The notes below the pieces were generated by a model that was not told the origin of the DNA, did no database searches, and worked only from the letters and a program-made list of their open reading frames with translations. From positions 372,001-436,000 of the forward strand of contig JWIT01000003.1 of NCBI GenBank assembly GCA_000949895.1: 64,000 nucleotides of DNA, read 5' to 3'. The position numbers and the translations under genes are program-made. Source of the stretch: Agrobacterium arsenijevicii. GTDB lineage: Bacteria > Pseudomonadota > Alphaproteobacteria > Rhizobiales > Rhizobiaceae. Of this stretch, positions 7,581 through 53,384 are shown in pieces (position 1 is the first letter of the stretch; every line of letters starts with the position of its first letter).

Positions 7581-7678
7581 AGCGCATCCGGCTTAAACGG
7601 AGCGTTGCGCGCGCCCTGCATCTTCAATCAAAAACATCAATCGGAACAGGCGCTTAAGCGACCCGCAAATTCCCTCGT

Positions 7679-8323: not shown

Positions 8324-8326
8324 CGG

Positions 8327-30761: not shown

Positions 30762-30784
30762 GCGTTCCGTTCAAGGAGAATGAT

Positions 30785-31846: not shown

Positions 31847-31850
31847 CATC

Positions 31851-34415: not shown

Positions 34416-35591
34416 TCAGTATGAACGTGAATTGCGGCTTTCGACGGCGCTGGAAACGAGGGCATGCTGCATGCGATCCAGTCCTTCGACCAGAAGACGA
34501 CGGGGGCAACCGAAGTTGAGACGTATATATTGCCCGTATGCTTCTCCGAATTCCGACCCGGCGCTGAAGCCAACCTTTCCGTGTTCGAGGAAAAAGGCTT
34601 GCGGGTCGGGTTTCAGGTCGAGAGCGGTGCAATCCAGCCAGGCGAGAAAAGTCGCTTCCGGTTTGATCATCCTGATGCCGGGGAAACGGTTGGCAATTTC
34701 AGCCGAAAGAAAATCGCGATTGGCTTCGATATAGGCCAGCATCTCTTTTTGCCATTTTCCGGCTCGGGAAAATGCCGCAAGCGTGGCTTCAAGTCCCAAT
34801 ATGTTGACGCTGTCCACCATACCGAGCCTTGAGGCGGCGAATTTTTCGCGGATGGTCCTGTTGGCGATGATGGCGAATGCGGTTTTGAGGCCGGCGATGT
34901 TGTAGCTCTTGCTTGCTGCCATCAGTGTGATCGTTCGATCGGAGGCATCGGCTGACATCGTTGCGATCGGCACGTGGCGAAGGCCGTCAAAAAGAAGATC
35001 GCAGTGAATCTCGTCGGAGATAATCAGCGTATCGTGCTTGCGGCAGAGTTCCGCCATTGCCCGCAGTTCATCGTGGGTGAAGACTTTGCCGGTGGGATTT
35101 TGCGGATTGCAGAGAAGGAAGGCTTTCGATCTGGCAAGTTCCGTCTCGAAAGCGTCAATGTCCATCGCCCAACCCTCATGAGTTGGGGTCAAGGGTGCCT
35201 CGCGGTGTACGAGGTTCCAGTGCCCCGCGGCATTGAGGATGGGCCGGTAAACCGGTGTCTGGACCAGAAGGCCGTCGCCTTGCCGCAACATCGCCTTCAG
35301 GGCCATGTTGAAGCCCGGCTCTACGCCTGGCAGGAAAACGATATGCTCGGGCGACACCGCCCAACCATATTTCGCCTGCATGTCGGCGACGATCCGGTCA
35401 CGCAACTCATCCCTGGCAACGCCGTAGCCGAGTAACGGGTGGTCCAGCCGCTCGCGTATGGCGTCGATGATTTCGGGCGCGGCCGGAAAATCCATGTCGG
35501 CAACCCACATCGGCAGGACGTCGGCGGGATATTTGCTCCATTTCGAACTGCCGGTGCCGCGACGATCGTATACAGCATCGAAATTGGTCAT
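34416..35591 (-). CDS. PLP-dependent C-S lyase, MalY/PatB type
   Basis: A 391-residue fold-type I aminotransferase-like enzyme. The MalY/PatB hallmarks are WVADMDFPAAPEIIDAI, LGYGV and the PLP lysine in AASKSYNIAGLKTAF, with NPQNPTGKVF and IISDEIHCDLLF for cofactor binding. Members cleave cystathionine or S-alkyl-cysteines to pyruvate, ammonia and a thiol. The start at 35591 (MTNFDAV) was taken from family register. It is downstream of the racemase-amidohydrolase-DapA genes on the same strand, after a 139-base gap. In the context of two rhodaneses it may release sulfur from an imported compound. Confidence 0.9.
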   Translation of the reverse strand: MTNFDAVYDRRGTGSSKWSKYPADVLPMWVADMDFPAAPEIIDAIRERLDHPLLGYGVARDELRDRIVADMQAKYGWAVSPEHIVFLPGVEPGFNMALKAMLRQGDGLLVQTPVYRPILNAAGHWNLVHREAPLTPTHEGWAMDIDAFETELARSKAFLLCNPQNPTGKVFTHDELRAMAELCRKHDTLIISDEIHCDLLFDGLRHVPIATMSADASDRTITLMAASKSYNIAGLKTAFAIIANRTIREKFAASRLGMVDSVNILGLEATLAAFSRAGKWQKEMLAYIEANRDFLSAEIANRFPGIRMIKPEATFLAWLDCTALDLKPDPQAFFLEHGKVGFSAGSEFGEAYGQYIRLNFGCPRRLLVEGLDRMQHALVSSAVESRNSRSY

Positions 35592-35739
35592 TTCCCTCAA
35601 ATTCCTCTGATTATTCCGCGAGCGATGCGGATCGAAGATCCGGTTACGTAGCGTGCCCTGCTGCTGGTCAGAAATACGGTGACGAGATCGCAGCTTGTGC
35701 CCGAAACGAGGGCTTTCTTGCCGGAAATCGGCAAAGCCG

Positions 35740-36666
35740 TCAGTTCAATAGCTCCAGTTTGCGTGCCTGACGCTCGATCAGCTTCTCGACTTCTTTCACG
35801 GCAAGTGCGCCCAGCGCCGCACCCGGACGGCGTTGGGCGGCGCTGGCAATGGCGCCCCGTTTTGCCAGAATGTATTTTCTCACGGCCAGTCCCAGACCGG
35901 GTTGCTGTTCGTAACGCATCAATGGCAGGTAGGCATCGAACAGATCCTGCGCGGCTTCGTATTTGCCCTCATTGCTGAGGTGGACCACATCGACCATCAT
36001 TTCCGGATAGGCGAAACCGGTCATGGCGCCGTCGGCGCCGCGCTGCATTTCTTCGGTCAGGAAAACGCCGGCATTACCGCACAGGATCGAGGTGCGACGA
36101 CGACCCCTGGCTTCCGCCTCACGCAGATCGGTGATCTTCTGCAGGCCCGGCCAATCCTCGTGCTTGAGCATGACGATGCTGGGATGGGCTTCGAAGATGG
36201 TGCCCAGCGTTTTCGAAGTGATCTGAACGCCGGTCGAGAGCGGGAAATCCTGCAGCACGACGGGCACGTCCGTTCCGATCGTCTCGACCACATTGCGGTA
36301 ATAGGAGGTGATCTGTTCGTCGGTGCGCAGCGAGGACGGCGGCGCGACCATGACCCCGGCGGCACCCATATCCATCACTGCCTTGGTCAATTCTCCAATG
36401 GCGGCGAGACCGGGCGCCGAGACGCCGACCACCACGGGTTTGCTCGGCGAGCGTTTCAGCGTCAGCCTCGTGACTTCGATCGATTCCGCCTGGGTGAGCT
36501 TCGGTGCTTCCCCCATCATGCCGAGGATCGTCAACCCGTCGGCGCCCTTTTTATAATAGAAGTCGACCATGCGGTCGATGCTGGCGCTGTCGAGCGAACC
36601 GTCTTCGGTAAACGGGGTGCAGGCGATGACAAAGACGCCTTTTGTGCTGGAATTGATCAGGGTCAT
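35740..36666 (-). CDS. DapA-family enzyme, divergent active site
   Basis: 308 residues of the dihydrodipicolinate synthase superfamily with TILGMMGEAPKLTQ (GxxGE loop) and SIVMLKHEDWPGLQ carrying the probable Schiff-base Lys. The usual YNxP tyrosine segment reads VVLQDFPLSTG, so the catalytic tyrosine position appears to be Gln. This argues for a lyase or hydrolase other than DapA. It lies 9 bases after the amidohydrolase gene in the same operon. The substrate is unknown. Confidence 0.82.
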   Translation of the reverse strand: MTLINSSTKGVFVIACTPFTEDGSLDSASIDRMVDFYYKKGADGLTILGMMGEAPKLTQAESIEVTRLTLKRSPSKPVVVGVSAPGLAAIGELTKAVMDMGAAGVMVAPPSSLRTDEQITSYYRNVVETIGTDVPVVLQDFPLSTGVQITSKTLGTIFEAHPSIVMLKHEDWPGLQKITDLREAEARGRRRTSILCGNAGVFLTEEMQRGADGAMTGFAYPEMMVDVVHLSNEGKYEAAQDLFDAYLPLMRYEQQPGLGLAVRKYILAKRGAIASAAQRRPGAALGALAVKEVEKLIERQARKLELLN

Positions 36667-36675
36667 GCGATGTTC

Positions 36676-38040
36676 CTATTCGAACCAGTGGAATTGACCG
36701 CGGCGGACATAATCTCCCGAGCCGGGCTCATTGACGATCTCACGACCGTTCCACGCAAGTCTGCCGCCCAGATAGGTACGGGCAACGGTGACGGTAAATT
36801 CGCGACCGTCAAAGGGGCTCCAGTTCAGTTCATCATGGGCCTTGGACGAATCCCAGATCTGACGCTCGTGTGAAAGAATGGCGAGATCAGCATCGGCCCC
36901 GATCCGGAGGGCACCTTTTTCCGGCCAGAGACCGAAGAACTTCGCCGGGCGTTCGCATAATTGCTCCACGGTGATGGCGGCGGCATCGAGGCCCCGGCCG
37001 GCAGCAGCCGTATAAAATGCCGGCAGAAGTGTTTCGAGACCGGGCACGCCAGCGCCCGCATCGAAGATCGACGGCGTGAACTTGTTGTCGATCGGCCAGC
37101 TGGAATGGTCGGAGCTGACGAAGGCGACCCTGCCGGCCTCGATTTCCTCCCAAAGCGCATCGATCTGGCCGGGGCGGATCGGCGGGTTCACCTTCATTTT
37201 CGCACCGAGTTCTGCACCGTCCCGGTCGGGATCGAACCACAGATAGTGCACGCAAAGTTCACCCGTCGCACGGAAGCCGTCGGCCAGATAATTGTCGACC
37301 AACTGGAAACCGCGAGCCGTGGTCAGATGCACAATATGCGCGTGGGCGCCGGCGGCGGCTCCGAGTTCGAGGAATTGCGCCGTTGCGGCAAGTTCCGCAG
37401 CCGGCGGCCGGCTTTCGGAATGGGCGGCGATACCGTCACGGCCCGCGGCTTTGGCGGCGGCAATATAGGCACGGACGATTTCCTGATCTTCGTTGTGGAC
37501 GCCGAGCGGGATTGTTGTTTCCGCCAGTGCGTTGAATGTGGCGAGTATCTGTTCTGATGCTATGCGGGGAAACCGGGTCGGGCTGCTTTCGAACGTGGAG
37601 ATCTTGAACGCCACGACGCCGTTTTCGATCAGCGGTTCGATATCGGCGGTGGACTGGCCGGGCATGATCGTGCCGTAAAGCGCAACATTGGTGTGGGCAT
37701 GTTCGCGAATTGCCGCGACCTTGTCTTCAAGGCGGGCAACGGTGTTGAGCGGGGCCGGATTGTCATAGGGCATGTCCACGATGGTGGTGACACCCCCGGC
37801 AATGGCCGAACGGGTCGTTGACCTTATGCCGGGCAGGCCGCCATAACTCGTTGCGTGGGTCTGACCGTCGATGACGCCGGGGATGACGAGGTCGCTGCCC
37901 GCATCGAAGCTTTCCGCCGCCTCCGGCGCAATACCTGTTCCAATTGAGACGATCTTTCCGCCTTCAATGCCCAGCCAGGCGTTTTGCAGAGGGCCTTCCG
38001 GCAATATAAGCGTGCCGCGCACTGTCAGGTCTAGTGTCAT
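36676..38040 (-). CDS. Hydantoinase/dihydroorotase-like cyclic amidohydrolase
   Basis: 454 residues of the amidohydrolase superfamily, closest in look to allantoinase, dihydropyrimidinase and hydantoinase. The carboxylated lysine is in VVAFKISTFE, and other metal or substrate ligands sit in PLGVHNEDQE, HAHIVHLTTA and FVSSDHSSW. The first metal motif, normally DxHxH, reads VIDGQTHATS: the first His is replaced by Gln. That may change metal content or substrate. It overlaps the racemase gene by 4 bases. Ring opening of a hydantoin-like or related cyclic amide is the best guess. Confidence 0.82.
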   Translation of the reverse strand: MTLDLTVRGTLILPEGPLQNAWLGIEGGKIVSIGTGIAPEAAESFDAGSDLVIPGVIDGQTHATSYGGLPGIRSTTRSAIAGGVTTIVDMPYDNPAPLNTVARLEDKVAAIREHAHTNVALYGTIMPGQSTADIEPLIENGVVAFKISTFESSPTRFPRIASEQILATFNALAETTIPLGVHNEDQEIVRAYIAAAKAAGRDGIAAHSESRPPAAELAATAQFLELGAAAGAHAHIVHLTTARGFQLVDNYLADGFRATGELCVHYLWFDPDRDGAELGAKMKVNPPIRPGQIDALWEEIEAGRVAFVSSDHSSWPIDNKFTPSIFDAGAGVPGLETLLPAFYTAAAGRGLDAAAITVEQLCERPAKFFGLWPEKGALRIGADADLAILSHERQIWDSSKAHDELNWSPFDGREFTVTVARTYLGGRLAWNGREIVNEPGSGDYVRRGQFHWFE

Positions 38041-38699
38041 CTGGCGGTTTTCCTATATCCCAGATCCAGGGTGGTGCAGGCCAGCGCTACGCCGGCCTGT
38101 ACGGGGTCGATTACGGGTATGCCGAGACTGTCCTGGAGTGCCTCACGATAGGAACCAAGCCCCGCGCAGCCGAGGATCAGGACATCCGCACCGTCTTCGT
38201 CGCGAAGCTTCCGGCCGGTGCGGGACACGACGTCCACGACGTCGCTCGCCATCAGTTCCACGACCGTCTTGTCTATGGAGCGGTCACCGGCCAGACGGCG
38301 ATCGAGTTCGAGGACTTTGAGATACCGCAGGTGCCTGTCGATCGAGGATTGCCCAAGCGAGATGATGCCGAAGCAGCTGCCAAGGCCGAGTGCCGTCAGA
38401 TAGGCGGATTCGGCAATGCCGAAGACGGGGCTTGCGGTGCGCCTGCGGACTTCGGCGATGCCCGGATCGGAGAAACAGGCCAGAACGAATGCATCCGCAG
38501 ATGAGGCCGTAACGGCCTCGATGATGTTGGGTATGACGGCTGCGACATGCTCATCCGTCTCTATGCCGGGGGGCGATTTCGAAAGCTCCGTGCATTCGAT
38601 CGTGTGGCGCGTTGCGGCGCGTACCGAACCGAGGCATGCTTCCATCGATTTCGTGACGGAGACGGAACTGTTGGGATTGATGACGAGAACCTTGGTCAA
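38037..38699 (-). CDS. Asp/Glu/hydantoin racemase family protein
   Basis: A 220-residue cofactor-independent racemase with the two-cysteine site: VLACFSDPG in the first half and LILGCAGLGSY in the second. The N-terminus VLVINPNSSVSVTKSM is typical of the hydantoin racemase branch. It would interconvert enantiomers of the compound then opened by the downstream amidohydrolase. It appears to start with TTG (38699), with a weak ribosome site. It is the first gene of the minus-strand operon that runs to the MalY-type lyase, with the operator at 38748-38765 upstream. Confidence 0.87.
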   Translation of the reverse strand: MTKVLVINPNSSVSVTKSMEACLGSVRAATRHTIECTELSKSPPGIETDEHVAAVIPNIIEAVTASSADAFVLACFSDPGIAEVRRRTASPVFGIAESAYLTALGLGSCFGIISLGQSSIDRHLRYLKVLELDRRLAGDRSIDKTVVELMASDVVDVVSRTGRKLRDEDGADVLILGCAGLGSYREALQDSLGIPVIDPVQAGVALACTTLDLGYRKTAR

Positions 38700-38747
38700 A
38701 AACGCACCCGTGAAATTGTACGCGCAGGGACGTGTTGCGCGAATTAG

Positions 38748-38765
38748 ATATATTACGTAATATAT
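38748..38765. promoter_or_regulatory. Operator A of the proposed GntR regulon
   Basis: ATATATTACGTAATATAT is a perfect 18-bp palindrome between the racemase gene (minus) and the GntR gene (plus). Related sites lie at 41470-41487 and 42574-42591. All three fit the consensus ATATAyTACGTArTATAT and lie in promoter positions. Confidence 0.65.
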
Positions 38766-38897
38766 TACGAGCCCGCTGGTGTCAAAGTCTGTTTGCTGCG
38801 ATTGGCGGGATCAAATTCCATGATAGAAGTCGAAATCTTCTCCTTCGTGTGACGGGGAAGATCCACGGGCAGGGGGACGGAGACGGATTTGGACAGA

Positions 38898-39590
38898 ATG
38901 GAAAAACTGGCGGTCTTGCCGGAGAAACGTGGAAAATCGCTGACGGAGCAGGCCTATGCGATATTGCGCGAACGTGTGATAGTGGGTGAGCTTGCGCCGG
39001 GCGTGGATGTCTCCGAACCCGAACTGGCCGAGCAGTTGCAGATGAGCAAGACGCCGGTGCGCGAAGCGCTGGCACGGCTGTGCGTCGAGGGGCTGATGGA
39101 AGCCTTTCCCCGCCGGGGCTATCGTGTGACCCCGGTTACGCTGAAGGACATGAATGATCTTTTTGCCATTCGCGGGGCGCTTGAAGGAACTGCGGCGGCG
39201 CTGGCTGCGCAAAACTTGACGGAGACGGAACTGGAAACGCTCGATGGGCTGGCTGACACCACCTATATCGTCGGCGAAAATGTCAGCACGAAAACCTTCG
39301 TTGCCTCGAACGAAAGGTTCCACTCGGCGATCGCAAGCGGTTCGGGCAATCCGCGCCTGCATTCGCTGGTCATGACCCATCTGGAAGAATGTGCGCGGCT
39401 TTTCTACATGGGAACGCGCGTTCGCGACATCAATCCGGAAACGACCAACGATCATCACCGCATCGTTGCATTTCTTCGCCAGCGCGACAGCGAGAAGGCG
39501 CGGCTTGCGATGATCGAGCACAACGAAAATACCCGCAAGGGATTGCTGGCCGCCATGGTCGCCAATCCGCAGTCGGGCATCTCGCTGTAA
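38898..39590 (+). CDS. GntR family regulator with FCD domain
   Basis: 230 residues. The winged-helix part has LAPGVDVSEPELAEQLQMSK followed by TPVREALARLCVEGL; the FCD effector domain has FHSAIASGSGNPRL and DHHRIVAFLRQRD with metal-type histidines. It is divergent from the racemase operon, and the perfect palindrome lies 133 bases before it. I propose that it controls the surrounding sulfur/nitrogen cluster. The ATG at 38898 was chosen; a TTG three codons upstream with GGAG spacing is an alternative. Confidence 0.92.
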   Translation: MEKLAVLPEKRGKSLTEQAYAILRERVIVGELAPGVDVSEPELAEQLQMSKTPVREALARLCVEGLMEAFPRRGYRVTPVTLKDMNDLFAIRGALEGTAAALAAQNLTETELETLDGLADTTYIVGENVSTKTFVASNERFHSAIASGSGNPRLHSLVMTHLEECARLFYMGTRVRDINPETTNDHHRIVAFLRQRDSEKARLAMIEHNENTRKGLLAAMVANPQSGISL

Positions 39591-39610: not shown

Positions 39611-41407
39611 TCAGTCGGTCTCCTTGAGCAGATGTCCCGGCGCGTATTCGCGGTAGACGGCCTTTGGCGGGATGTAGTCCGCAGGCCTGACGGCGCTGCC
39701 GATCTCCATACCCGCACGCGCCTTGCGCAGATGCCGCCGGGCGGGATCGGCGATTGGCACGGCATCCAGAAGGCGTCGGGTATAGGGGTGCTGCGGATCG
39801 CCGAAAATCTGCGCGCGCGATCCGATTTCGACGATCTCTCCCAGATACATCACCGCAACCCGGTGGCTGACGCGTTCCACCACCGCCATGTCGTGGCTGA
39901 TGAAGAGATAGGCGATTTTCAGGCGCTCCTGAAGCTCCAGCATCAGGTTGACGACCTGCGCTTTGATCGACACGTCGAGGGCGGAAACTGCCTCGTCGGC
40001 GACGATGAGCCCCGGGTTCAGCGTCAGGGCGCGGGCGATGCTGATGCGCTGGCGCTGGCCGCCGGAAAATTCGTGTGGGAACCGGCGTGCCATATCGGCT
40101 GTCAGCCCGACATTTTCCAGAAGCTCCACCGCTTTCGCTCTGGCGTCGTTCCCACTGGCCAGCCCATGCGCGATCATCGGTTCGGCGATCGCATCACCAA
40201 CGCGCATGCGCGGATTGAGGCTGGAGAATGGATCCTGGAAGATCATCTGCATTCGCTGCCGCTGCCGGGTGAGATCGGCAGTCGACAGGTTGCGGATATC
40301 CTGCCCGTTGACGCGGATCGTTCCACTGACCGGTTCGACCAGCCGCAGGATCGAGCGGCCGGTGGTGGATTTGCCGCAACCGGACTCGCCGACGAGCGAG
40401 AGCGTTTCGCCTTTATTAAGATGGAACGAAACATCCTCCACGGCATGCACCCGGGCGCTGACGCGGCCGAATATGCCGCTCCTGATGTCGAAGCGCGTCA
40501 CAATGTTCTTCACCTCCAGCACTGGCGTCTGAAGAGCCGGCTGGACCTGCCGTTCCGCAAGGGCGACACCGGTTTCGACATCAACGAGCGGAAAAGTGGC
40601 GGGATTTTCCCGGCCGGCCATCGAGCCCAGTTTTGGAACGGCGGAGAGCAGCGCGCGGGTATAATCGCTGCCCGGCCGAGCGAAAATTTCCTCCGTTGCG
40701 GCCGTCTCCAGCGCGCGCGAGCGGAACATCACGACGGTTCTGTCGGCAATTTCGGCGACCACGCCCATATCATGGGTGATGAAGAGAACACCCATCTTCT
40801 CCTCGTCCTGCAGGCTTTTGATAAGCTCAAGGATTTCCGCCTGAACGGTGACGTCCAGGGCGGTCGTGGGCTCATCGGCAATCAAGAGGGTCGGGCGGCA
40901 GGACAATGCCATGGCGATCATCACGCGCTGCAGCGTGCCGCCGGAAAGCTGATGGGGATATTCATCGAAACGTTTGGCGGCGGACGGTATGCGGACGCGT
41001 TCGAAAAGGCGGATGGTTTCCGCACGCGCCTCTGCGGCGGTGACCGGGCGATGGCGGCGAATGGCTTCGGCGATCTGTCGCCCGACGCTCAGGACAGGAT
41101 TGAGAGACGTCATCGGCTCCTGAAAGATCATGGCGATGCGGTTGCCGCGAATGTCCTGCATCTCGCGTTCCGGAAGGTCCAACAAATCGCGACCTTCCAG
41201 TTCGATGCGGCCACTGACGCGGGATGTCCTTTCAGGCAGAAGCCGCATGATCGACATGGCGGTAACGCTTTTGCCCGAACCGGATTCTCCGACGATGGCA
41301 ACGGTTTCCCCGGCGTTCACCGTAAGGCTCACATTGTTGACGACAGGCTCCCACGCGCCCTTCCGCCAGAAGGATGCGGTGAGGTTTTGCACGGAAAGAA
41401 CGGTCAA
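39611..41407 (-). CDS. Fused two-domain ABC transporter ATP-binding protein (GsiA type)
   Basis: 598 residues holding two complete ATPases of the oligopeptide branch in one chain. Domain 1 has [24 protein letters not shown] and [12 protein letters not shown]; domain 2 (from about 315) has [24 protein letters not shown] and [12 protein letters not shown]. In the second Walker B the usual Pro after Glu is Ala. It starts with TTG (41407) behind AGGAG at 9 bases. The matching binding protein and permeases are at 42671-46187 on the opposite strand. Confidence 0.93.
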
Positions 41408-41532: not shown

Positions 41533-42420
41533 ATGGCAAAATTACCGGGAGATCAATGTCCTATGGGTGACGACATTCGCAAAGCCGTTCTTCTCACGCC
41601 GTTCGAATTGAGCGAGATGTTGAAGTCCGGCGCGGATGTGACGGTGTTGGCGGTCCATTCGATCAACCCCTATACCGGCCAACCCTCCTTCATGGGCCGG
41701 CGTATTGAGGGTGCAGTCGATACCGAAGCCTATAGCGACTTCCAGTCGCCGCCGTCCTTTGAAGGCGGGCAGCGCCCGCTTCCCGACATAGAGACGCTTC
41801 AGGAAAAGGCTCGTCGCTGGGGATTGCGCCCGCAAGCCACGATCGTTGTTTATGACGGCGACCGAAGCATGACGGCGGCGCGTGCCTGGTGGGTGCTGAA
41901 ATGGGCGGGCCTGAAAGATGTGCGTGTTCTGGATGGAGGTTTTCCCGCCTGGGTATCCGCCGGGCTGCCGACAACCGAGGCGGTCGTCGTGCCTCAGCCG
42001 GGCACGATTGAATTTTCGCCCGGCCATATGCCCGAATTCGGCGCGGATGATGCCTTGCTGCTTGCTGAGGATGGTGTGTTGCTGGATGCGCGCATCCGGC
42101 CGAATTATATCGGCGGCCCTGTTGCCGAGGGTCAGCCGGTGCGCGGCCATATTCCGCATGCCGTCAGTGCGCCGGCGCCGGACAATGTCACGGATTACGG
42201 CAATTTCACCGATAGCGCGACTTTGAGGGAGATGTATCGGGCGCTCGGTGTGGACGGCACCCGCAAGGTCGGGGTCTATTGCGGTGCAGGCATGTCTGCG
42301 GCGCACACGGTTCTCGCGCTCGCCGCCATCGGAGTATCTGCCGCCATGTATCCCGGATCGTGGTCGGCGTGGATATCGGATCCCTCGAGGCCGGTCGTCA
42401 CGGGGGCGGATCCGGCTTGA
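41533..42420 (+). CDS. Tandem-rhodanese sulfurtransferase (SseA/TST type)
   Basis: 295 residues with two rhodanese domains. The N-terminal one has VVYDGDRSMTAARAWWVLKW, where Asp replaces the active cysteine. The C-terminal one has the catalytic loop YCGAGMSAAHT with a Cys, and ends with MYPGSWSAW. Such enzymes move sulfane sulfur from thiosulfate or 3-mercaptopyruvate to an acceptor. The CGAGMSA loop differs from the CRxGxR/T of typical thiosulfate enzymes. The start at 41533 is uncertain; 41563 (MGDDIRKA) is also possible. It follows operator B. Confidence 0.87.
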   Translation: MAKLPGDQCPMGDDIRKAVLLTPFELSEMLKSGADVTVLAVHSINPYTGQPSFMGRRIEGAVDTEAYSDFQSPPSFEGGQRPLPDIETLQEKARRWGLRPQATIVVYDGDRSMTAARAWWVLKWAGLKDVRVLDGGFPAWVSAGLPTTEAVVVPQPGTIEFSPGHMPEFGADDALLLAEDGVLLDARIRPNYIGGPVAEGQPVRGHIPHAVSAPAPDNVTDYGNFTDSATLREMYRALGVDGTRKVGVYCGAGMSAAHTVLALAAIGVSAAMYPGSWSAWISDPSRPVVTGADPA

Positions 42421-42670: not shown

Positions 42671-44233
42671 ATGAATATCTGGAAGGGTTTTGCAGCGGCT
42701 ATGGTCGCGGTGCCGATCGTTGCGGCTGGTCCTCTTGCCCATGCGCAGGATCAGTCGAAAACGCTGGTTGTCGCGGTTCCTTCCGATCCGGTTGGCCTCG
42801 AACCCGGCGGCAACAAGGCGGAGCCGGTCGGCAGCGAAATCATCCTCAACGTGTTCGATACGCTCGTCGCGTGGACGGCGCCGGATTTCAAACAGATCGA
42901 AGGCCGGCTGGCCACGAGCTGGACGATCTCCGCCGATGGCAAGGAGTTTGACCTCAAGCTGCGTGAAGGCGTTAAATTCCAGGACGGCACGCCGTTCAAC
43001 GCGGCTGCAGTCAAGTTTTCGCTGGAGCGCACCAAGACTGCCAACCCCTATGTCAAGGCCACCTTCGATCTGATCAAGGACATTACGGTTGTGTCTCCGA
43101 CAGAGGTGAAGATCACCCTTTCGGCGGCATATCCCGCCTTCCTTTCCATTCTCGCGCAGCCGCAATCGGCCATCGTCAGTCCAACAGCCGTTGCGAAGCT
43201 GGGCGACAAGTTCGCGACCAGCCCGGTTGGAACCGGTCCTTTCATCTTCAAGGGCGCGCAGGCCGATACCAATGTGGTGCTGGAGGCCAATCCGGACTAT
43301 TTCCGCGGTGCGCCGAAGCTTTCGAAGATCATCTACCGCGTCATTCCCGATGCCTCCACCCGCCGCCTCGAGCTTGAAAGCGGCGGTGTCGATGTCGTCC
43401 AGCAGCAGGGCCAGCTTTCGGCTATCGCCGCAGAAGACATCGCGGCGCTGAAGACCAACAAGGATGTGAAGATTCTCGAGACCTCGAGCCAGATCATCCG
43501 CCAGCTGGAGTTCAACAACAGCAAGACGGACGGCCCCTTCGCCGATGTTCGTGTTCGCCAGGCCATCACGCACGCCATCGATTACGACGGGCTGCTGCAG
43601 GGGGTCTTCGGCGGTACGGCCGAGCGTGTCTACGGCCCGCTGACCAGCAACAGCTGGGCGTTCAATCCGAAGATGAAGGAGCTTGCTCCCAAATACGATC
43701 CGGAGCTTGCCAAGAAGCTGCTGACGGAGGCGAAGGTCGATCCGTCCAGCCTAGATCTGAAGCTTTACAGCTTCCAGGGTCCTCTGTGGGGTGCCGTCGC
43801 CACCTTCGTTCAGGCAAACCTTGCCGATATCGGCGTCAACGCCACCATCCAGCAGACGGAATTTCCGGCGCTGCGTGCATTGCAGACCTCCGGCCAGTTC
43901 GACGTGGCGCTGGACGGCCGCCAGCCTTGGTACAACGACCCGGATGCCCATATCACCATCGGTTACCTCTCCTCGCTTGCCAACACCGCCATGACCTTCC
44001 GCATGCCGCAGGACAAGGCGCTGGACGATCTCATCCTCAAGGCGCAGCAGACCTCCGACGCGGAATCCCGCAAGCAGCTATATTTCCAGGTGCAGGAAAA
44101 GATTGCCGAAAAAGTGCCCGGCGCTTACCTCTTCAGCCCGAAGCTCATCGTCTTCCTGCGGTCGAATGTCGAAGGCCTCGTGGTCAACAGCGCGCCGCCG
44201 CTCAATGAATATTGGTCCGTCTACAAGAAGTGA
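42671..44233 (+). CDS. ABC transporter substrate-binding protein (SBP family 5)
   Basis: 520 residues with a signal peptide ending near AHAQDQ (MNIWKGFAAAMVAVPIVAAG start). It has the family 5 pattern LATSWTISADGKEFDLKL, GVKFQDGTPFNAAAVKFSLER and GTGPFIFKGA. It is the periplasmic receptor for the permeases at 44334-46187, with the fused ATPase at 39611-41407. It starts at the ATG at 42671 with AGGGAAGGG upstream. A hairpin behind it probably lowers transcription of the permeases relative to the receptor. Confidence 0.93.
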   Translation: MNIWKGFAAAMVAVPIVAAGPLAHAQDQSKTLVVAVPSDPVGLEPGGNKAEPVGSEIILNVFDTLVAWTAPDFKQIEGRLATSWTISADGKEFDLKLREGVKFQDGTPFNAAAVKFSLERTKTANPYVKATFDLIKDITVVSPTEVKITLSAAYPAFLSILAQPQSAIVSPTAVAKLGDKFATSPVGTGPFIFKGAQADTNVVLEANPDYFRGAPKLSKIIYRVIPDASTRRLELESGGVDVVQQQGQLSAIAAEDIAALKTNKDVKILETSSQIIRQLEFNNSKTDGPFADVRVRQAITHAIDYDGLLQGVFGGTAERVYGPLTSNSWAFNPKMKELAPKYDPELAKKLLTEAKVDPSSLDLKLYSFQGPLWGAVATFVQANLADIGVNATIQQTEFPALRALQTSGQFDVALDGRQPWYNDPDAHITIGYLSSLANTAMTFRMPQDKALDDLILKAQQTSDAESRKQLYFQVQEKIAEKVPGAYLFSPKLIVFLRSNVEGLVVNSAPPLNEYWSVYKK

Positions 44234-44333: not shown

Positions 44334-45344
44334 ATGGCGAGTTTCATCATACGCCGGCTGATCGCGCTGATACCGGTCCTCTGCATCGTGCTGGTGATCG
44401 TATTTTCGCTGGTCAGGCTGATCCCGGGCGATCCGGCCGTGACGCTTCTCGGCCCGGGGGCGACGCAGGAGCAGATCAATGCGCTGCGCACCCAGCTCGA
44501 TCTCGACCAGCCGATGGTCCTGCAATTCGTAAATTACGTTCTGGGCCTGTTTCACGGAGATATGGGCTTTTCCCTGAAATCCGGGGAGCCCGTCGCCCGC
44601 GAAATCCTCAGCCGCCTTCCGGCCACGATCGAGCTTTCGGTGCTCGCCACTATCGTCGCGATTGTCTTCGGCATTCCGATCGGCGTGCTTTCCGCCGTGC
44701 GGCCCAACTCGATCTTCGATCACGTTACCCGCATCGTCTCGTTGGTAGGTGTATCTATGCCGGCTTTCCTGCTGGCGCTCATCCTGCAATTGATCTTCGC
44801 GACCTATCTCGGCTGGTTGCCGGTTTCGGGCAGGATGAGTTCATTCGTAACGGCCGAGACCGTGACCGGTTTCGCCGTGCTTGACGGCATCATAACCGGC
44901 AATCCGGCTGCCGCCTGGAGCGCCGTTCAGCATCTCATTTTACCGACTGCGGTGCTGGCTGCCTTTCTCGCGGCGACGCTTGGCCGTTTCGTGCGCAACA
45001 CCATGCTTGATGTGATGGGGGAAGACTTCATCCGCACGGCAAGGGCCAAGGGGCTTCGCCGCGCCGATGTCGTGCTCAATCACGGCCTGCGCAACTCGCT
45101 GTTGCCGGCGATCACGGTCATCGGCCTGAAGTTCGCCGAAATGCTCGGTGGCGCAATTCTGACCGAAACGATCTTCGCCTGGCCGGGTGTCGGCCGTTAC
45201 ATGTTCGAGGCCATCAAAAACCGCGACTATCCGGTCATTCAGGGAACAACGCTTGTCTTCGCGCTGCTTTTCGTTCTGACCTCGATCGTGGTGGATTTGC
45301 TATATGGCGTTCTCGACCCGCGCGTCCGCAAGAAAATGAAGTGA
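44334..45344 (+). CDS. ABC transporter permease (DppB type)
   Basis: 336 residues, about six helices. It begins MASFIIRRLIALIPVLCIV, the classic DppB start, and has LIPGDPAVTLLGPGATQEQI, GDMGFSLKSGEPV and the EAA loop ARAKGLRRADVVLNHGLRN. The start at 44334 has GGAG directly upstream; a longer frame from 44289 is not protein-like. Its partner follows after 3 bases. Confidence 0.94.
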   Translation: MASFIIRRLIALIPVLCIVLVIVFSLVRLIPGDPAVTLLGPGATQEQINALRTQLDLDQPMVLQFVNYVLGLFHGDMGFSLKSGEPVAREILSRLPATIELSVLATIVAIVFGIPIGVLSAVRPNSIFDHVTRIVSLVGVSMPAFLLALILQLIFATYLGWLPVSGRMSSFVTAETVTGFAVLDGIITGNPAAAWSAVQHLILPTAVLAAFLAATLGRFVRNTMLDVMGEDFIRTARAKGLRRADVVLNHGLRNSLLPAITVIGLKFAEMLGGAILTETIFAWPGVGRYMFEAIKNRDYPVIQGTTLVFALLFVLTSIVVDLLYGVLDPRVRKKMK

Positions 45345-45347
45345 CCC

Positions 45348-46187
45348 ATGCGTGAACTCCTTGTCTTTCTGCGACGCAACACGCTGGCCGTTGTCGGCCT
45401 TGCCATCCTTGCCGCGCTGGTCGCCATCATCACCCTCGGCCCCGTGTTTTCGCCCTACACACCGACCAAGCTCGACATTCTGCACAAGCTGGAGGGGCCA
45501 AGCTTCACGCATTGGCTCGGCACGGATGCCTTCGGCCGCGACGTGCTGACCCGCATCATGTACGGCGGCCGCGCGACACTGACGATCGGTGTCGGTGTGG
45601 TGGCCATCGCCTTCGTCATTGGCGTGTTTTTCGGAATGCTGGCGGGTTTTACCGGCGGCTGGCTCGATAGCGTCATCATGCGCATCGTCGATGCGATCCT
45701 CGCGTTCCCGGCGCTGGTGCTGGCGATTGCGCTTGCCGCCGCTTTCGGCCCAAGCCTGCAGAACGCCATGCTGGCCGTTGCGATTACGCTTGCGCCACAA
45801 TTTGCGCGAGTGGCGCGCAGCCAGGCCCTGACCATATCCGTCAAGCCCTATGTCGAGGCTGCGATTTCCCTTGGGTTGCCTACCCACCGTATTCTGCTGC
45901 GCTATATCTTCGTCAACGGGCTTGGGCCGCTCCTCGTCCAGTCGACGCTGGCGCTCGGCAGTGCCATTCTCCAGACTGCGAGTCTGGGCTTTCTGGGGCT
46001 GGGCGCGCAGCCGCCGCTTGCGGAATGGGGGGCGGATGTCTCGGCCAATCTCCAATATGTCCGCAGTTCGGCGTGGGTTGCCCTTGCGCCCGGCATGGCG
46101 ATCCTGCTGGCCGTGCTTTCTTTCAACCTGATCGGCGACAGCCTGGCGGATTGGCTCAATCCACGTCGCCGCAGCGAACTCGAGTGA
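45348..46187 (+). CDS. ABC transporter permease (DppC type)
   Basis: 279 residues with the DppC features WLGTDAFGRDVLTRIMYGGR, IMRIVDAILAFPALVLAIA and the EAA-type loop SLGLPTHRILLRYIFVNG. It ends 8 bases before the next gene, a second binding protein homologue. Confidence 0.94.
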   Translation: MRELLVFLRRNTLAVVGLAILAALVAIITLGPVFSPYTPTKLDILHKLEGPSFTHWLGTDAFGRDVLTRIMYGGRATLTIGVGVVAIAFVIGVFFGMLAGFTGGWLDSVIMRIVDAILAFPALVLAIALAAAFGPSLQNAMLAVAITLAPQFARVARSQALTISVKPYVEAAISLGLPTHRILLRYIFVNGLGPLLVQSTLALGSAILQTASLGFLGLGAQPPLAEWGADVSANLQYVRSSAWVALAPGMAILLAVLSFNLIGDSLADWLNPRRRSELE

Positions 46188-46195
46188 GGCCATCC

Positions 46196-47581
46196 GTGAA
46201 GACACTCGCCATCAGCCTCGAAAAAGTGGATTTCCTGCCGCCGACGCGGGTGACCGATGACACCAGCGTCCTGACATTGAAAAACCTCGTTTTTGAACCG
46301 CTGCTCAAATGGGCAGATGGTTTCGTTCATCCGGCCCTCTTCGACGGCTGGACCCACTCGCCAGATGGTCGTGAATGGCGTTTCACCATCCGCAAGGGCG
46401 CGGTCTTCCATGATGGCAAGCCGTGCGTTGCGGACGACGTCCTCGCCTTCATCGACGGAATTCTTGAGGCGGTGGATACCTTCGGCATGAAATGGTCCTA
46501 TGCGCGTTACCTGAAGGATGCGCGGATCACGGCCGAAGCAAACGATGTCGTGCGTGTCGAAAACCCTGAGCCGATTGCCGATATTCTCGACATCTTCTCC
46601 GAATTTTATCTCTGCCGTTTCGATACCGCAGGGCGTCCCATCCTCGGCACGGGCCGATACCGGGTCATGGAATTCGAGCCGTTGAAACGCGCCGTGCTGG
46701 AACGGGTGAAGGACGAGCCCAGTCCCCTTATTATCACCGTGCTGGCGGAGAAAAGTGCCGATCTTCGCTACGACCAGTTGAAGGGTGGCCTCGTCGATGC
46801 CGCCCTTAATCTGGAGCGGGTGGACGGACGCCTTGCCTTTGACGACCCCTTCCAGTGGGGCAAGGCGGTGAATACTTTGTCCGTCATGTATTATCTGAAT
46901 TGCAATGAGGGGATTTTCCGCTCGGCCAAGGCGCGCCTCGCCGTCAACCATGCGGTGGATACGGCGGCCATGGCGCAACAGATATTTCATGGTCTGGCCG
47001 TGCCGTCCTCGTCCATTGTCAGCCCTTTCCACCTGGGCATGGCCAAAGCGGATTTAACGCCGATCGCCTACGATCCCGAAAAGGCGAAACGCCTGCTTGA
47101 TGGGGTCGAAACGGGTGGACGGATCAGGTTGCGCACGCCGACTTACATGCCCGAGCGCGCGCCGGAAATGAGCCGCTTTGTGGCGGAAGCGCTGGAGGCT
47201 GTGGGCCTTGCGGTCGACATCGAAACGGAGCCGGACAGGCCGGAATATGCCCGCCAGATCGGCCGCAAGGACATGGGCGACATGGCGATTTTCGATTCAT
47301 CGCCACATAGCACCTATCGCATCCTGAATGACAAGATTTCCAGCGAAACCAAAGCCGTCTGGTGGCAGGGCTATGACGACGCCGAGACGGAAGCGTTGAT
47401 CAAGACGGCAAATCGCGCCGTGGGCGACGCCGAACGGGAAGCGGCCTATGCGCGCTGCCTGATACGGCTTCACGAAGCTCCGCCCTGGCTATATCTCGTG
47501 CACCCAGTCGATGTATTTGCGGCGCGCAAGGGTATCGGCGGACTTTCGATCGATCACAAGGGCACACTCAACATCCGCTGA
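46196..47581 (+). CDS. SBP family 5 protein lacking a signal peptide
   Basis: 461 residues with the oligopeptide-binding pattern (FDGWTHSPDGREWRFTI, GAVFHDGKPCVADDVLAFIDG, GTGRYRVMEF). It begins directly at the first strand, MKTLAISLEKVDFLPPTRV, with no hydrophobic leader. Upstream sequence in frame is the preceding permease gene, so a missed leader is unlikely. Unless exported by another route it should be cytoplasmic, and might sense or bind the imported ligand inside the cell. It starts with GTG at 46196, 8 bases after the permease, with a weak ribosome site (GAGTGAGG). Confidence 0.85.
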   Translation: MKTLAISLEKVDFLPPTRVTDDTSVLTLKNLVFEPLLKWADGFVHPALFDGWTHSPDGREWRFTIRKGAVFHDGKPCVADDVLAFIDGILEAVDTFGMKWSYARYLKDARITAEANDVVRVENPEPIADILDIFSEFYLCRFDTAGRPILGTGRYRVMEFEPLKRAVLERVKDEPSPLIITVLAEKSADLRYDQLKGGLVDAALNLERVDGRLAFDDPFQWGKAVNTLSVMYYLNCNEGIFRSAKARLAVNHAVDTAAMAQQIFHGLAVPSSSIVSPFHLGMAKADLTPIAYDPEKAKRLLDGVETGGRIRLRTPTYMPERAPEMSRFVAEALEAVGLAVDIETEPDRPEYARQIGRKDMGDMAIFDSSPHSTYRILNDKISSETKAVWWQGYDDAETEALIKTANRAVGDAEREAAYARCLIRLHEAPPWLYLVHPVDVFAARKGIGGLSIDHKGTLNIR

Positions 47582-47596
47582 GCCGAGGACAGGACA

Positions 47597-47977
47597 ATGG
47601 AAAAAGATTACTCGATCACCTTCTTTTATTACGACGACATACATGCGGTTGTGCCTTTTTATGAAAACGTGCTCGGTCTGGAACTGGTGCTGGATCAGGG
47701 CCTCGCCCGTATCTATCGCATCGCCGGCAAGTGCTATTTCGGCATCGTCGATGGCAATCGCGGTCATCTGAAACATCAGGAAAAAAGCGCCGTGCTTTTG
47801 ACCATCGTGGCGCAAGATGTGGAAGGCTGGCACAAACGCATGCAGGATGCCGGGGTAAAGGGTCTTTCCGGGCTGCTGCGCGGGACCTATTGCGAGCACT
47901 TCTTTTTCGAGGATCCAGCCGGTTACGCGGTCGAGATCCAACGTTTCCACAATCCGGATATAGCGAAGCTGTTTTGA
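47597..47977 (+). CDS. VOC family protein
   Basis: 126 residues with paired beta-alpha-beta-beta-beta modules: ITFFYYDDIHAVVPFYENVLGLELVLDQG at the start and FFFEDPAGYAVEIQRFHNP at the end. That end carries a C-terminal Glu in the usual metal-ligand place, and an EHFFF-type strand. A lyase, isomerase or ligand-binding role is possible; the substrate is unknown. Its stop shares one base with the start of the next gene (TGATG), showing tight coupling with the NACHT/SUMF1 gene. Confidence 0.85.
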   Translation: MEKDYSITFFYYDDIHAVVPFYENVLGLELVLDQGLARIYRIAGKCYFGIVDGNRGHLKHQEKSAVLLTIVAQDVEGWHKRMQDAGVKGLSGLLRGTYCEHFFFEDPAGYAVEIQRFHNPDIAKLF

Positions 47978-50052
47978 TGACGAGCAAAGATCACACAGCA
48001 CTGGCGGCATTGCGCGATCGGCTTCTATCCATGGCGCGAGAATTCGGGCGGACGGCGCTTTTTGCGTTGCCGGATGGCTCGGCCGTGAATTTGGAAACCG
48101 GTTATATTCCGCTGCTCGTCAATTTCAGCTTCGAGGATAAGGCCGCGAAGGGCTTGCGCAAGCTTAAGGATCAGAACGCACCGGAACCGCCGGTCTATTT
48201 TTCGGCGCTGGAAATGGTGCGGGACAATGCCGCACTGCTGCTGGCCGGTGAAACAGGCAGCGGCAAAACGAGTTTTGCCAAACATCTGGCGCTGCGGCTC
48301 GCCGAGGGCGGTCCGGCCGCAGCAGCCTTGCCGCGAAACGATCTCGGCGCTATGCATGAGGAACGCTTCGGGCTTGCAAACATCCTGCCGCTTTATGTTC
48401 CCGTAACCGCTGGCAAAACCTTCGCTGAATTACTGGACGCGGCCTGCCCGGCTGCGGATGCCTTTTTGTCCGACAAGGCATATGCGGATTCCGAAACCTC
48501 CTGTCTGCTCATTCTGGATGGCATCGAAGCGGCGGGTGCCGATGGTCCCGCGCTCATAGATCATGCGCTGGCCTTTCAGGCGCGCCATTCCCGTATCCGC
48601 CTGCTTGCGCTCGGCGAGATTTCCGTCGTCAAGGGCTGGGCGCTGCCATCCGCCATTGCGCAATATGATCTTCTGCCACTGCTCAGGGTCCAGCGCCGCG
48701 ATGCGGCCCGACGGCTGGCCGGGCTTGATCTGGACGCCACGGGTATCGCCCTAGGTGATGCGGCTGCGAACCCCGCCCAATTCGCGCTTGCAATAAGCGC
48801 GGGCAATGCTGGCGATGTTGCAGAGGCCATCGTGGATGCATGGCTTGGCCGGATTGCAGGCGACAAGCAGACCGGCAATTTCTTGTGCGGGCTGGCTTTC
48901 GATGCGCTTGCCGGAACGCTCGACGATCCTTCAGTGCTGCCGGTCATGCGTGTGCGCCAGTTGCTGGCGGCCCGGCATCTGGCTTCCCGGCCGGTTGAGG
49001 AGGCCGTCAAGCCGTTTCGTGAACAACCCGCGATCTGGACACCCGTGCTGAAGAGCCTTGCTGCGCGGTTTTCCCGGCCGGAGAATATCCATGCTCTCGC
49101 GGAGGCGCTCGTTTCCGGTGAAGGGGTGGAGGTGTTGCGAGGAGCGCTTCTCGCAGCCGATTTCGTTGCCGAACCCGGCGGGTTGCGCGAAAATGTTGCG
49201 AGCCACCTTCTGGAGATTGTACATGAAGGCGCTCTTTCCGCGCGGGAGCGGGAAAAGGCGGGTCGCAAGCTTTCCATCTGGGGCGATCCACGTAATCTGG
49301 AAGCTCTGGCAACCGTGCCGGGTGGCATATTCACCTTTGGCTCGCATGCTCATCCCAATTCAACACCGCCGCATCAACTAGCGGTGAGCGATTTCCGGAT
49401 AGGGCTTTATCCCGTGACGAATGCCGCCTATGGAGTCTTTATCAGGGAGACGGGGCGGCTCTGGCGTAGTCCCGACGGATTTGCCGAAGACAGGCGTAAT
49501 GCGCCCGCGACCGATCTGACCTGGCACGATGCGCGCGCTTATTGCGGTTGGCTGACCCTGCGCTGGCGGGATGAGGGAGCCATCGGAACTGACGAGATCA
49601 TCCGTCTTCCGACGGAGCCGGAATGGGAACGTGCGGCGCGCGGCGATCAGCCGGATGCTGGCGGCGACAGGATTGTCTATCCCTGGGGCAGCGTCTGGCA
49701 GGATGATGCCGCCAATTCGGAGGAGGCGGGGTTCAACAACACTTGCGCTGTCGGTCTTTTCCCGAAAGGCCGTTCTATTTACGGCTGTTACGATATGGCA
49801 GGTCAGGTCTGGGAATGGTGCACGACGCTTTGGGGCGAGGACATGGCAACGCCCAGCTTCAAGTACCCCTATCGCCACGATGGCCGGGAAGTCCCGGAAG
49901 CCAGCCCTTCCATTCGTCGCGTGCTGCGGGGAGGTTGCTTTTCAAGTGGCTTGCAAAAAGCCTGCTGTACATATCGGGGTAGCCTTGAGCCTGACGGCTT
50001 CTGGCGGGGCAACGGCTTCCGCATCGTCGTTTCACAGGTACGGGGCCAATAG
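47977..50052 (+). CDS. NACHT-like NTPase fused to a SUMF1 (FGE-sulfatase) domain
   Basis: A 691-residue two-part protein. The N-terminal part has Walker A GETGSGKTS (91-99), a strand PLYVPV (138-143) and Walker B LLILDG (177-182), in the NACHT/STAND manner, followed by a helical region to about 435. The C-terminal part (about 445-688) is a SUMF1/EgtB/PvdO-type domain: VPGGIFTFGS, IGLYPVTNAAYGVFI, RLPTEPEWERAARG, YDMAGQVWEWC, RVLRGGCFSS and GNGFRIV. The two spaced cysteines of copper-dependent formylglycine-generating enzyme are not in register: Ser657 stands where the first is expected, with Cys654, Cys663 and Cys664 nearby. Sulfatase activation is therefore doubtful. It is the last gene of the importer operon. 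Function unknown. Confidence 0.85.
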   Translation: MTSKDHTALAALRDRLLSMAREFGRTALFALPDGSAVNLETGYIPLLVNFSFEDKAAKGLRKLKDQNAPEPPVYFSALEMVRDNAALLLAGETGSGKTSFAKHLALRLAEGGPAAAALPRNDLGAMHEERFGLANILPLYVPVTAGKTFAELLDAACPAADAFLSDKAYADSETSCLLILDGIEAAGADGPALIDHALAFQARHSRIRLLALGEISVVKGWALPSAIAQYDLLPLLRVQRRDAARRLAGLDLDATGIALGDAAANPAQFALAISAGNAGDVAEAIVDAWLGRIAGDKQTGNFLCGLAFDALAGTLDDPSVLPVMRVRQLLAARHLASRPVEEAVKPFREQPAIWTPVLKSLAARFSRPENIHALAEALVSGEGVEVLRGALLAADFVAEPGGLRENVASHLLEIVHEGALSAREREKAGRKLSIWGDPRNLEALATVPGGIFTFGSHAHPNSTPPHQLAVSDFRIGLYPVTNAAYGVFIRETGRLWRSPDGFAEDRRNAPATDLTWHDARAYCGWLTLRWRDEGAIGTDEIIRLPTEPEWERAARGDQPDAGGDRIVYPWGSVWQDDAANSEEAGFNNTCAVGLFPKGRSIYGCYDMAGQVWEWCTTLWGEDMATPSFKYPYRHDGREVPEASPSIRRVLRGGCFSSGLQKACCTYRGSLEPDGFWRGNGFRIVVSQVRGQ

Positions 50053-50599: not shown

Positions 50600-52207
50600 A
50601 TGACGATAGGACGCCGCCAGTTCAATAAAATGCTTCTTCTGGCAACCGCGGGAACAGCCCTGCCGGGTTCGGTGTTTGCTGCAAACACCAACACAGTCCG
50701 GCCCGTATCCGGGGGTACGCTCAAGCTGCTCTATCGTGTAGATCCCGGCAACGCTCTTTTCGCCATCAATACATCATCGGGTACCGGACAGGCGATCGGC
50801 CCGAAGATCGTGGAAGGTCTTCTGACATTCGATTTCGACCTAAATCCACAGCCCCTGCTGGCGACGGAATGGTCCGTTTCGGACGACCATCTGCGCTATA
50901 CGTTCAAACTCCGCCCGAACGTGAAGTGGCATGACGGTGAAGATTTTACATCGAAAGACGTCGCCTTTTCGATCCTCCGGCTGAAGGAAGCCCATCCACG
51001 CGGCCGCATCACCTACCAGAACGTCAAGGAGGTGAAAACACCGGATCCGTTGACCGCCATCGTCGTTCTGTCCAAACCGGCACCGTTTCTGATCGCCGCG
51101 CAATCGAGTTCGGAATCTCCGATCGTGCCGAAGCATATTTTTGAAAAGCTGAAGCCCGCCGATGGCCAGACACTGCAAACCGCAATTGGCACAGGCCCCT
51201 TTAAGTTGACGGAATGGACGCCGGGCAGCCACCTGATCTTCGAACGAAACCCCAACTATTGGGACGCGGGCAAACCCTATCTTGATCGCATCATTCTTCG
51301 CATCATCACCGACCCGGCTGCGCGGGCGGTGGCGCTGGAGACGGGCGAAGTCGATATCGGCGACAATCCGGTTCCGTTGGCGGATCTCGAACGCTTGAAG
51401 CAGAACCCCGATCTCGTCGTGGATACGAAAACCTATGCTTATGCGGGTCCGCAGCAACAGTTGTTCTTCAACTACGATAACGAGATATTCCGCAAGAAAG
51501 ATGTGCGCCTGGCGATTGCAAAGGCGATCAATATCGATGAAATCGTTAATGTGGCGCTCTTCGGTTATGCGCAGATCTCACCGAGCCCCGTAAGCACCGC
51601 CCTGCCGAATTGGTATGACGCTTCGGTCAAGGCGCACGCCTATGACCCGAAAGAAGCGGAAAAATTACTTGATGCCGCCGGGTATCCCCGCAAGAGCGAT
51701 GGCAAACGTTTTGCAGCACGGTTGACCTACAATTCATATCTGACGCCCGGCTATGCGGATGTCCTCCGCGGCCAGCTTGAAAAGATCGGTATTGCCGTCG
51801 AAATCCGCAAATACGACCTTCCGACCTATCTCAAGACTGTTTACACGGACCGCGCCTTTGATCTGGTCGTGGAATCCCTTTCCAACACATTCGATCCGTC
51901 GCTTGGCATTCAGCGGGCTTATTGGAGCAAGAATTTCAAGATCGGCCTACCCTTTTCCAATGCCGCCAACTACGCCAATCCAGAGGCGGATGCGCTGCTT
52001 GAGGCGGCCTCCATTGAGCCCGATCCGAAAAAGCGCTGGGTGTCCTGGAGCAGGTTTCAGCATCTCATCCATGACGAGGTCGCCTCCGTCGATCTTGTCG
52101 CGGCGGGAAGCCAGATCGTGGCGCGCAAGCGGGTTAAGAACTACGTCACCGGCGCGCAGGGTCTCAACTGGAGTTTCGGCGATCTGTGGCTCGACCCGAC
52201 CGCTTGA
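50600..52207 (+). CDS. Tat-exported ABC substrate-binding protein (SBP family 5), orphan
   Basis: 535 residues. The N-terminus MTIGRRQFNKMLLLATAGTA followed by LPGSVFA is a twin-arginine signal (RRxFxK), so it is exported folded. The mature part has the family 5 pattern LATEWSVSDDHLRYTFKL, NVKWHDGEDFTSKDVAFSILRL and GTGPFKLTEW. No permease or ATPase gene follows; a triple rhodanese comes next, 40 bases on. It may feed the permeases at 44334-46187. It starts at 50600 behind AACGGGGA. Confidence 0.92.
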   Translation: MTIGRRQFNKMLLLATAGTALPGSVFAANTNTVRPVSGGTLKLLYRVDPGNALFAINTSSGTGQAIGPKIVEGLLTFDFDLNPQPLLATEWSVSDDHLRYTFKLRPNVKWHDGEDFTSKDVAFSILRLKEAHPRGRITYQNVKEVKTPDPLTAIVVLSKPAPFLIAAQSSSESPIVPKHIFEKLKPADGQTLQTAIGTGPFKLTEWTPGSHLIFERNPNYWDAGKPYLDRIILRIITDPAARAVALETGEVDIGDNPVPLADLERLKQNPDLVVDTKTYAYAGPQQQLFFNYDNEIFRKKDVRLAIAKAINIDEIVNVALFGYAQISPSPVSTALPNWYDASVKAHAYDPKEAEKLLDAAGYPRKSDGKRFAARLTYNSYLTPGYADVLRGQLEKIGIAVEIRKYDLPTYLKTVYTDRAFDLVVESLSNTFDPSLGIQRAYWSKNFKIGLPFSNAANYANPEADALLEAASIEPDPKKRWVSWSRFQHLIHDEVASVDLVAAGSQIVARKRVKNYVTGAQGLNWSFGDLWLDPTA

Positions 52208-52247
52208 AATTCGACGTGAAAATCCAAAATTGTCAGGAGGATACGGA

Positions 52248-53339: not shown

Positions 53340-53384
53340 CCCAGCCTGATATTCGCCAAACTGCTACACAGACAGGAATTTGTA

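Follow-up and report, generated by a model that had tools for sequence, protein, structure and literature searches.

A NACHT–SUMF1 fusion protein as a conserved member of a probable import-and-breakdown locus in Agrobacterium arsenijevicii

The window, a stretch of 64,000 nucleotides from Agrobacterium arsenijevicii, contains a forward-strand gene (47977..50052, here called NF) whose 691-residue product joins a NACHT-type P-loop NTPase to a SUMF1 domain, as judged from ORF translation, Pfam, fold matching and an alignment of homologues. NF is present as a single copy in its genome. It follows a gene for a VOC-family protein of 126 residues (47597..47977, forward strand; Pfam PF00903, E 1.5e-9), and the one-base coupling of the two genes proposed in the initial annotation is borne out by the stop codon of the first (TGA, 47975-47977) and the start codon of the second (ATG, 47977-47979). 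The overlap is four bases in 33 of 48 loci and one base in five of the 48. The fusion is real and lies far beyond chance, because 53 distinct full-length homologues align across the whole of it and key residues are kept in all 53. This set leaves out a remnant (L010), frame-broken genes (L032 and L065), genes with an internal stop (L038 and L063), genes at contig ends (L047, L050 and L062) and duplicates (L014, L015, L018 and L029). When 44 family members were scanned one by one with Pfam at E ≤ 1e-3, FGE-sulfatase was matched in all 44, nSTAND3 in 21 and NACHT in 18. A helical linker with GDPR at its end (residues 402-443, 49180..49305, forward strand as for all parts of NF) connects the two halves. 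In most family members no more than about 15-55 residues separate the start from a conserved EDK motif, and an N-terminal effector domain is therefore absent.

The predicted fold of residues 5-396 (47989..49164), with NBD, HD1, winged-helix and HD2-like parts, matches the NACHT modules of NLRC4, NOD2 and NLRP3 and identifies the N-terminal half of NF as a divergent NACHT-type P-loop NTPase. Pfam matches to this half are NACHT (E 1.7e-5, 25.2 bits against a cut-off of 26.7) and nSTAND3 (E 1.5e-5, 25.2 bits against 27.2), so that the first 430 residues do match P-loop NTPase profiles, at scores under the cut-offs. The translation confirms Walker A (GETGSGKTS, residues 91-99, 48247..48273) and Walker B (LLILDG, residues 177-182, 48505..48522), on which the initial annotation had based its NACHT/STAND-like ATPase. 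In NACHT/STAND proteins the aspartate of Walker B is followed by a small residue, with an acidic residue three positions on. In the 53 homologues D181 is invariant, residue 182 is G or A in 43 and residue 184 is E or D in all. The sensor-1 arginine of NACHT/STAND NTPases, not counted here as family-defining, is missing: position 214, matched to it by visual alignment, carries an acidic residue (E or D) in all 53 homologues, and for this reason the module is termed divergent. NF thus shares fold and Walker motifs with the NLR modules and differs from them in scoring below the Pfam cut-off, in its acidic sensor-1 position, in the absence of leucine-rich repeats and in its shortening in several lineages. 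The NACHT half is eroding. The Walker A lysine, K97, is K in 48 homologues, R in four and C in one, and the segments corresponding to residues 86-250 and 251-405 span 107-174 and 111-188 residues, respectively. G94, G96 and D181 are invariant even where the lysine is lost, and nucleotide may therefore still be bound. The N-terminal motif EDKAAKGLR (residues 53-61, 48133..48159) is also kept, with E53, D54, A57, L60 and R61 in 53 of 53 homologues and K58 and G59 in 52.

The SUMF1, or FGE-sulfatase, domain occupies residues 444-684 (49306..50028) and is complete, as had been claimed. Pfam PF03781 (E 3.8e-41) is covered nearly end to end, from position 5 to 254 of 255, which assigns the domain to the superfamily, and the structural model has a pLDDT of 94.8. 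The C-terminal loop of the domain (residues 646-684, 49912..50028; RGGCFSS..KA..xYRGSLEP...WRGNGFR) is frozen: C654 and K661 are found in 53 of 53 homologues and S657 in 52, and C654 occurs in none of the 24 non-cassette relatives that cover the position. Pairs of the 46 representatives less than 90% identical to one another share on average 67.6% identity in the SUMF1 domain and 84.1% in the loop, against 40.8% in NACHT residues 53-260 and 32.9% in residues 261-405. The SUMF1 domain is probably the working end of NF, because its conservation exceeds that of the NACHT half, its length is constant (235-241 residues in all 53 proteins) and an effector domain is absent.

Its fold and an NCBIfam EgtB match (E 3.4e-17) could be read as signs of a true formylglycine-generating enzyme or of an EgtB-type sulfoxide synthase, which is very improbable. 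Mutation of Cys336, Cys341, Ser333, His337 or Tyr340 alters FGE activity, according to the accessible part of PMC4505483. Human FGE Cys336 aligns to Ser657 of NF, Ser333 to Cys654, Tyr340 to Lys661 and His337 to the variable G658, while Cys341 aligns to Ala662 in the profile alignment or to Cys663 in a pairwise alignment with T. curvata FGE. The catalytic residues Cys336, Cys341 (by the profile alignment), Ser333 and Tyr340 are all replaced, and the loss of the copper-binding cysteine pair, noted in the initial annotation, is upheld. The EgtB match reaches 62.6 bits against a cut-off of 360. The sulfoxide synthases EgtB, SenA and OvoA carry their Fe site in an N-terminal DinB domain, and NF has no Pfam match to DinB at E ≤ 1. 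The idea of a nonheme-metal enzyme, put forward earlier, finds no support as such, given that a metal site cannot be named and the DinB match is absent. ToxD of Burkholderia glumae (7spq), whose match to NF extends over the linker as well, differs from it in being a crystallised chain of 316 residues without a NACHT half and in having a biosynthetic rather than an importer context.

NF ends an importer operon. Profile matches place upstream of it, on the forward strand, an SseA-type rhodanese, or sulfurtransferase, with a conserved YCGAGMSAA loop (41563..42420), a family-5 solute-binding protein with a signal-peptide-like N-terminus (SBP1, 42671..44233), DppB-type (44334..45344) and DppC-type (45348..46187) permeases, a second family-5 solute-binding protein without a signal peptide (SBP2, 46196..47581, start approximate) and the VOC protein; a GsiA-like double ABC ATPase is divergent, on the reverse strand (39611..41407). 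In 52 loci with sufficient sequence upstream, taken from the best 80 of 107 relatives (L011-L065 minus L047, L050 and L062, with L010 and the loci from genome searches excluded), SBP1, DppB, DppC and VOC are each present in 52, SBP2 and the ABC ATPase in 46 each and SseA in 45. All 52 have the fusion, and have it behind VOC, so that close relatives do share it. As these loci were picked by NF itself, their counts are silent on importers without NF, and it is presence surveys that address that side. In 199 sampled Rhizobiaceae genomes, NF, SBP2 and a close VOC (at least 74% identity) co-occur in the same four; among 61 relatives they co-occur in the same nine. A tenth relative (L107, G008) has a decayed copy, with the tail of VOC and NF residues 14-435 at 9605-8361 on the reverse strand, beside other genes and with the SUMF1 domain gone. 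A class-wide sample gave NF in one of 385 genomes and SBP2-like proteins in five, four of them at 31-36% identity, these counts being of low sensitivity because merely three to four candidates were scored per genome. Relatives of SBP2 that are likewise leaderless and 31-36% identical occur in other Alphaproteobacteria (L103-L106). NF appears to be a fixed, co-inherited member of an import-and-breakdown gene set, apparently for a sulfur compound. The six loci without SBP2 are also without SseA (L041, L049, L051 and L054, all four named Roseomonas or Falsiroseomonas, together with L057 and L064), and L033 too lacks SseA; the sulfur link is therefore not universal.

The cassette also bears on whether NF could be a non-catalytic scaffold or carrier, acting in the cytosol as part of a complex that includes VOC and SBP2, each of the three a ligand-binding fold, and passing the compound on to the hydantoinase. 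VOC adjoins NF in 52 of 52 loci and is translationally coupled to it in most, and SBP2, in the loci examined, is made without a signal peptide though its gene lies within an importer operon. Structural roles of SUMF1 domains are known from PorK/GldK. Such a role is nevertheless unlikely for NF, as a scaffold would require far less conservation of the loop residues and SBP2 is missing from six of the 52 NF-bearing loci. In VOC itself, about 46 of the 126 positions are at least 97% conserved over 52 sequences, and the usual metal-ligand histidines are presumably lacking.

The initial annotation, right about the end of the importer operon, overlooked a divergent catabolic half (34416-39590). On the reverse strand, this half encodes a PatB-family PLP C–S lyase (34416..35600; NCBIfam 411.8 bits against a cut-off of 340), a DHDPS-family lyase/aldolase (35740..36666; Pfam), a hydantoinase-type amidohydrolase (36676..38040) and an Asp/Glu/hydantoin racemase (38037..38699; Pfam PF01177, E 3.1e-50), and on the forward strand a GntR-family regulator (38889..39590; profile match). 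In seven extended loci the lyase/aldolase, hydantoinase and racemase are present in all seven, and PatB in all six that cover its position. The earlier account of the neighbourhood had thus missed the hydantoinase, the racemase, the C–S lyase, the sulfurtransferase, the binding protein that has no leader and the fusion-free sister locus described below. Among NCBIfam models the hydantoinase scores best with ErtD, from ergothioneine utilisation, but its 494.4 bits stay under the cut-off of 600, and the protein is therefore named ErtD-like, not ErtD. No other Ert model matched NF or the remaining eight of the nine cassette-side proteins scanned, and a role for NF or the cassette as ErtC or another ergothioneine step was rejected on this ground. 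In the literature on the locus and on ergothioneine catabolism no description of the NF locus was recognised, which is not proof of its absence from print. Searches of 28000-64000 with Rfam at the gathering score gave no RNA element, and promoter and terminator scans gave counts at or below the shuffled expectation. An ORF at 38814-39521 on the reverse strand was rejected as a gene, its conserved signal being antisense to the GntR gene and a Pfam match absent. The downstream genes (50600-54638) for a further binding protein (SBP3), a triple rhodanese and acyl-CoA-dehydrogenase-like proteins suggest further sulfur metabolism. They were rejected as members of the system since they do not accompany NF in the displayed loci, where rhodanese and dehydrogenase matches number zero and SBP3 has one weak match (L065, 28%). 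A second importer, with a family-5 binding protein and two permeases, lies upstream on the forward strand (29160-32762).

A distant VOC (37-42% identity) was found in six sampled Rhizobiaceae genomes without NF, and five of the loci were inspected. Four of them (L117, L118, L119 and L121) combine VOC with a solute-binding protein, DppB/C, a pair of ABC ATPases and an SBP2-like protein. Homologues of the hydantoinase and the racemase, 64-68% identical, accompany these in three of the four, and importer matches are absent from the fifth (L120). At the thresholds used, NF, SseA and PatB gave no match in any of the five (L117-L121). The type of locus in the window is thus set apart from its sister by the presence of NF, of the C–S lyase and of the sulfurtransferase. 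The sulfur reading rests chiefly on this comparison, which is small at four loci.

Phylogenetic analysis of 35 SUMF1 domains has united the 18 cassette sequences in a single clade (100/100) with a long stem (1.02), and the nearest outside sequences, of Chloroflexota (L066-L068), are weakly supported (85/52 and 83/76). The nearest non-cassette relatives scanned (L066-L070 and L072) have NACHT and SUMF1 matches, NACHT being under the cut-off in four of the six. Beside the NACHT–SUMF1 gene of L066, the start of the ORF at 7447-8952 looks nucleoside-phosphorylase-effector-like when read by eye. STAND–SUMF1 proteins are known from putative conflict systems, in the accessible text of PMC8195603, PMC7159879 and PMC10907252, and these systems were the sole related topic found in the literature on the fusion. 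Together this suggests that a defence-type STAND–SUMF1 protein was recruited into metabolism. As described in the accessible parts of PMC8195603 and PMC10907252, the conflict proteins and DGR targets likewise consist of a STAND/NACHT NTPase followed by a C-terminal SUMF1 (FGS) domain. NF differs from them, within the same limits of those sources, in its metabolic locus in place of effector or protease neighbours, in having no N-terminal effector and in a C-terminal loop that is frozen, not variable. That NF is still an anti-phage STAND protein, sitting in the operon by chance, is highly unlikely despite this kinship with NACHT–SUMF1 proteins: in each of the 52 loci its neighbours are the same metabolic genes, matches of its P-loop in PADLOC-DB 2.0.0 are weak (best 17.1 bits, residues 81-112), the loop that would do the sensing shows no diversification and is frozen, and a reverse transcriptase is absent from its contig. 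The possibility of a DGR variable protein was rejected, with a loop of such high identity and the one RVT_1 match of the genome on contig C52, NF being on C25.

The two proposals of the initial annotation, a ligand-gated regulator and an enzyme acting on the imported compound, both still lead, with conservation favouring the SUMF1 domain as the working end and an output domain absent. As a metabolite-gated switch, NF would sense the compound through SUMF1 and bind ATP and oligomerise through NACHT, and a partner would relay control to the importer, the enzymes or the GntR regulator. Such a switch would resemble MalT, minus its DNA-binding domain. The NACHT fold with both Walker motifs agrees with it, a frozen pocket suits one fixed ligand, and the invariant EDKAAKGLR could be the site of the partner. 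In known STAND–SUMF1 proteins the SUMF1/C-type-lectin domain is thought to be the sensor, as far as the accessible text of PMC10907252 goes. On the other side, NF has no output or effector domain and hardly space for one, the locus already encodes a GntR regulator, the Walker lysine is lost in five of 53 homologues, NACHT regions shrink, and the by-eye sensor-1 position is acidic throughout. A switch is a possible but rather doubtful explanation.

The explanation preferred here, tentatively and with somewhat less than even confidence, is that NF serves, as the dedicated final component, a locus for import and degradation, and that it combines a SUMF1-domain enzyme or substrate-binding protein with a NACHT scaffold. 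The fusion, the conservation of the cassette, the frozen pocket and the erosion of NACHT are observed and the folds are predicted; the class of substrate, the catalysis and any role of ATP are inferred. The substrate would be a small sulfur-containing molecule, with a hydantoin-like cyclic ureide and a cysteine-derived compound as the probable types, and would be taken up via SBP1, DppB, DppC and the ABC ATPase. In the cytosol it may be held or relayed by the leaderless SBP2 and VOC; the racemase and hydantoinase would open its ring, the PatB lyase would cut the C–S bond and the SseA-type sulfurtransferase would accept the sulfur. The SUMF1 pocket, rebuilt from that of FGE, would bind and most likely convert the imported compound or an intermediate, and the NACHT half, from a STAND–SUMF1 ancestor, would be a nucleotide-dependent scaffold or gate for it. 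Against this explanation, the frozen pocket fits a strict ligand sensor equally well, and G94, G96 and D181 stay invariant where the Walker lysine is lost, so that nucleotide binding may still matter. It also has against it that the hydantoinase misses the ErtD cut-off, that SseA is absent from some loci, and that the evidence on the divergent half comes from seven loci and that on the sister locus from four. A bolder version, quite unlikely as it stands, is that an NLR-type NACHT module, recruited from conflict proteins into primary metabolism, gates a SUMF1-fold enzyme whose new Cys/Lys active site releases or transfers sulfur from imported thio-heterocycles. If true, it would mean new chemistry for the SUMF1 fold and the first nucleotide-gated SUMF1 enzyme.

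NACHT modules have been studied as immune switches, and here one belongs to a catabolic locus. What NACHT does when it is not serving defence can thus be put to the test in a simple setting, where the ligand is likely to be a small molecule. A natural contrast that can help to identify the substrate is the sister locus, from which the fusion, the C–S lyase and the sulfurtransferase are all missing. The SUMF1 fold is large and poorly characterised, and a frozen SUMF1 pocket without the catalytic residues of FGE is a candidate for novel chemistry or ligand recognition.
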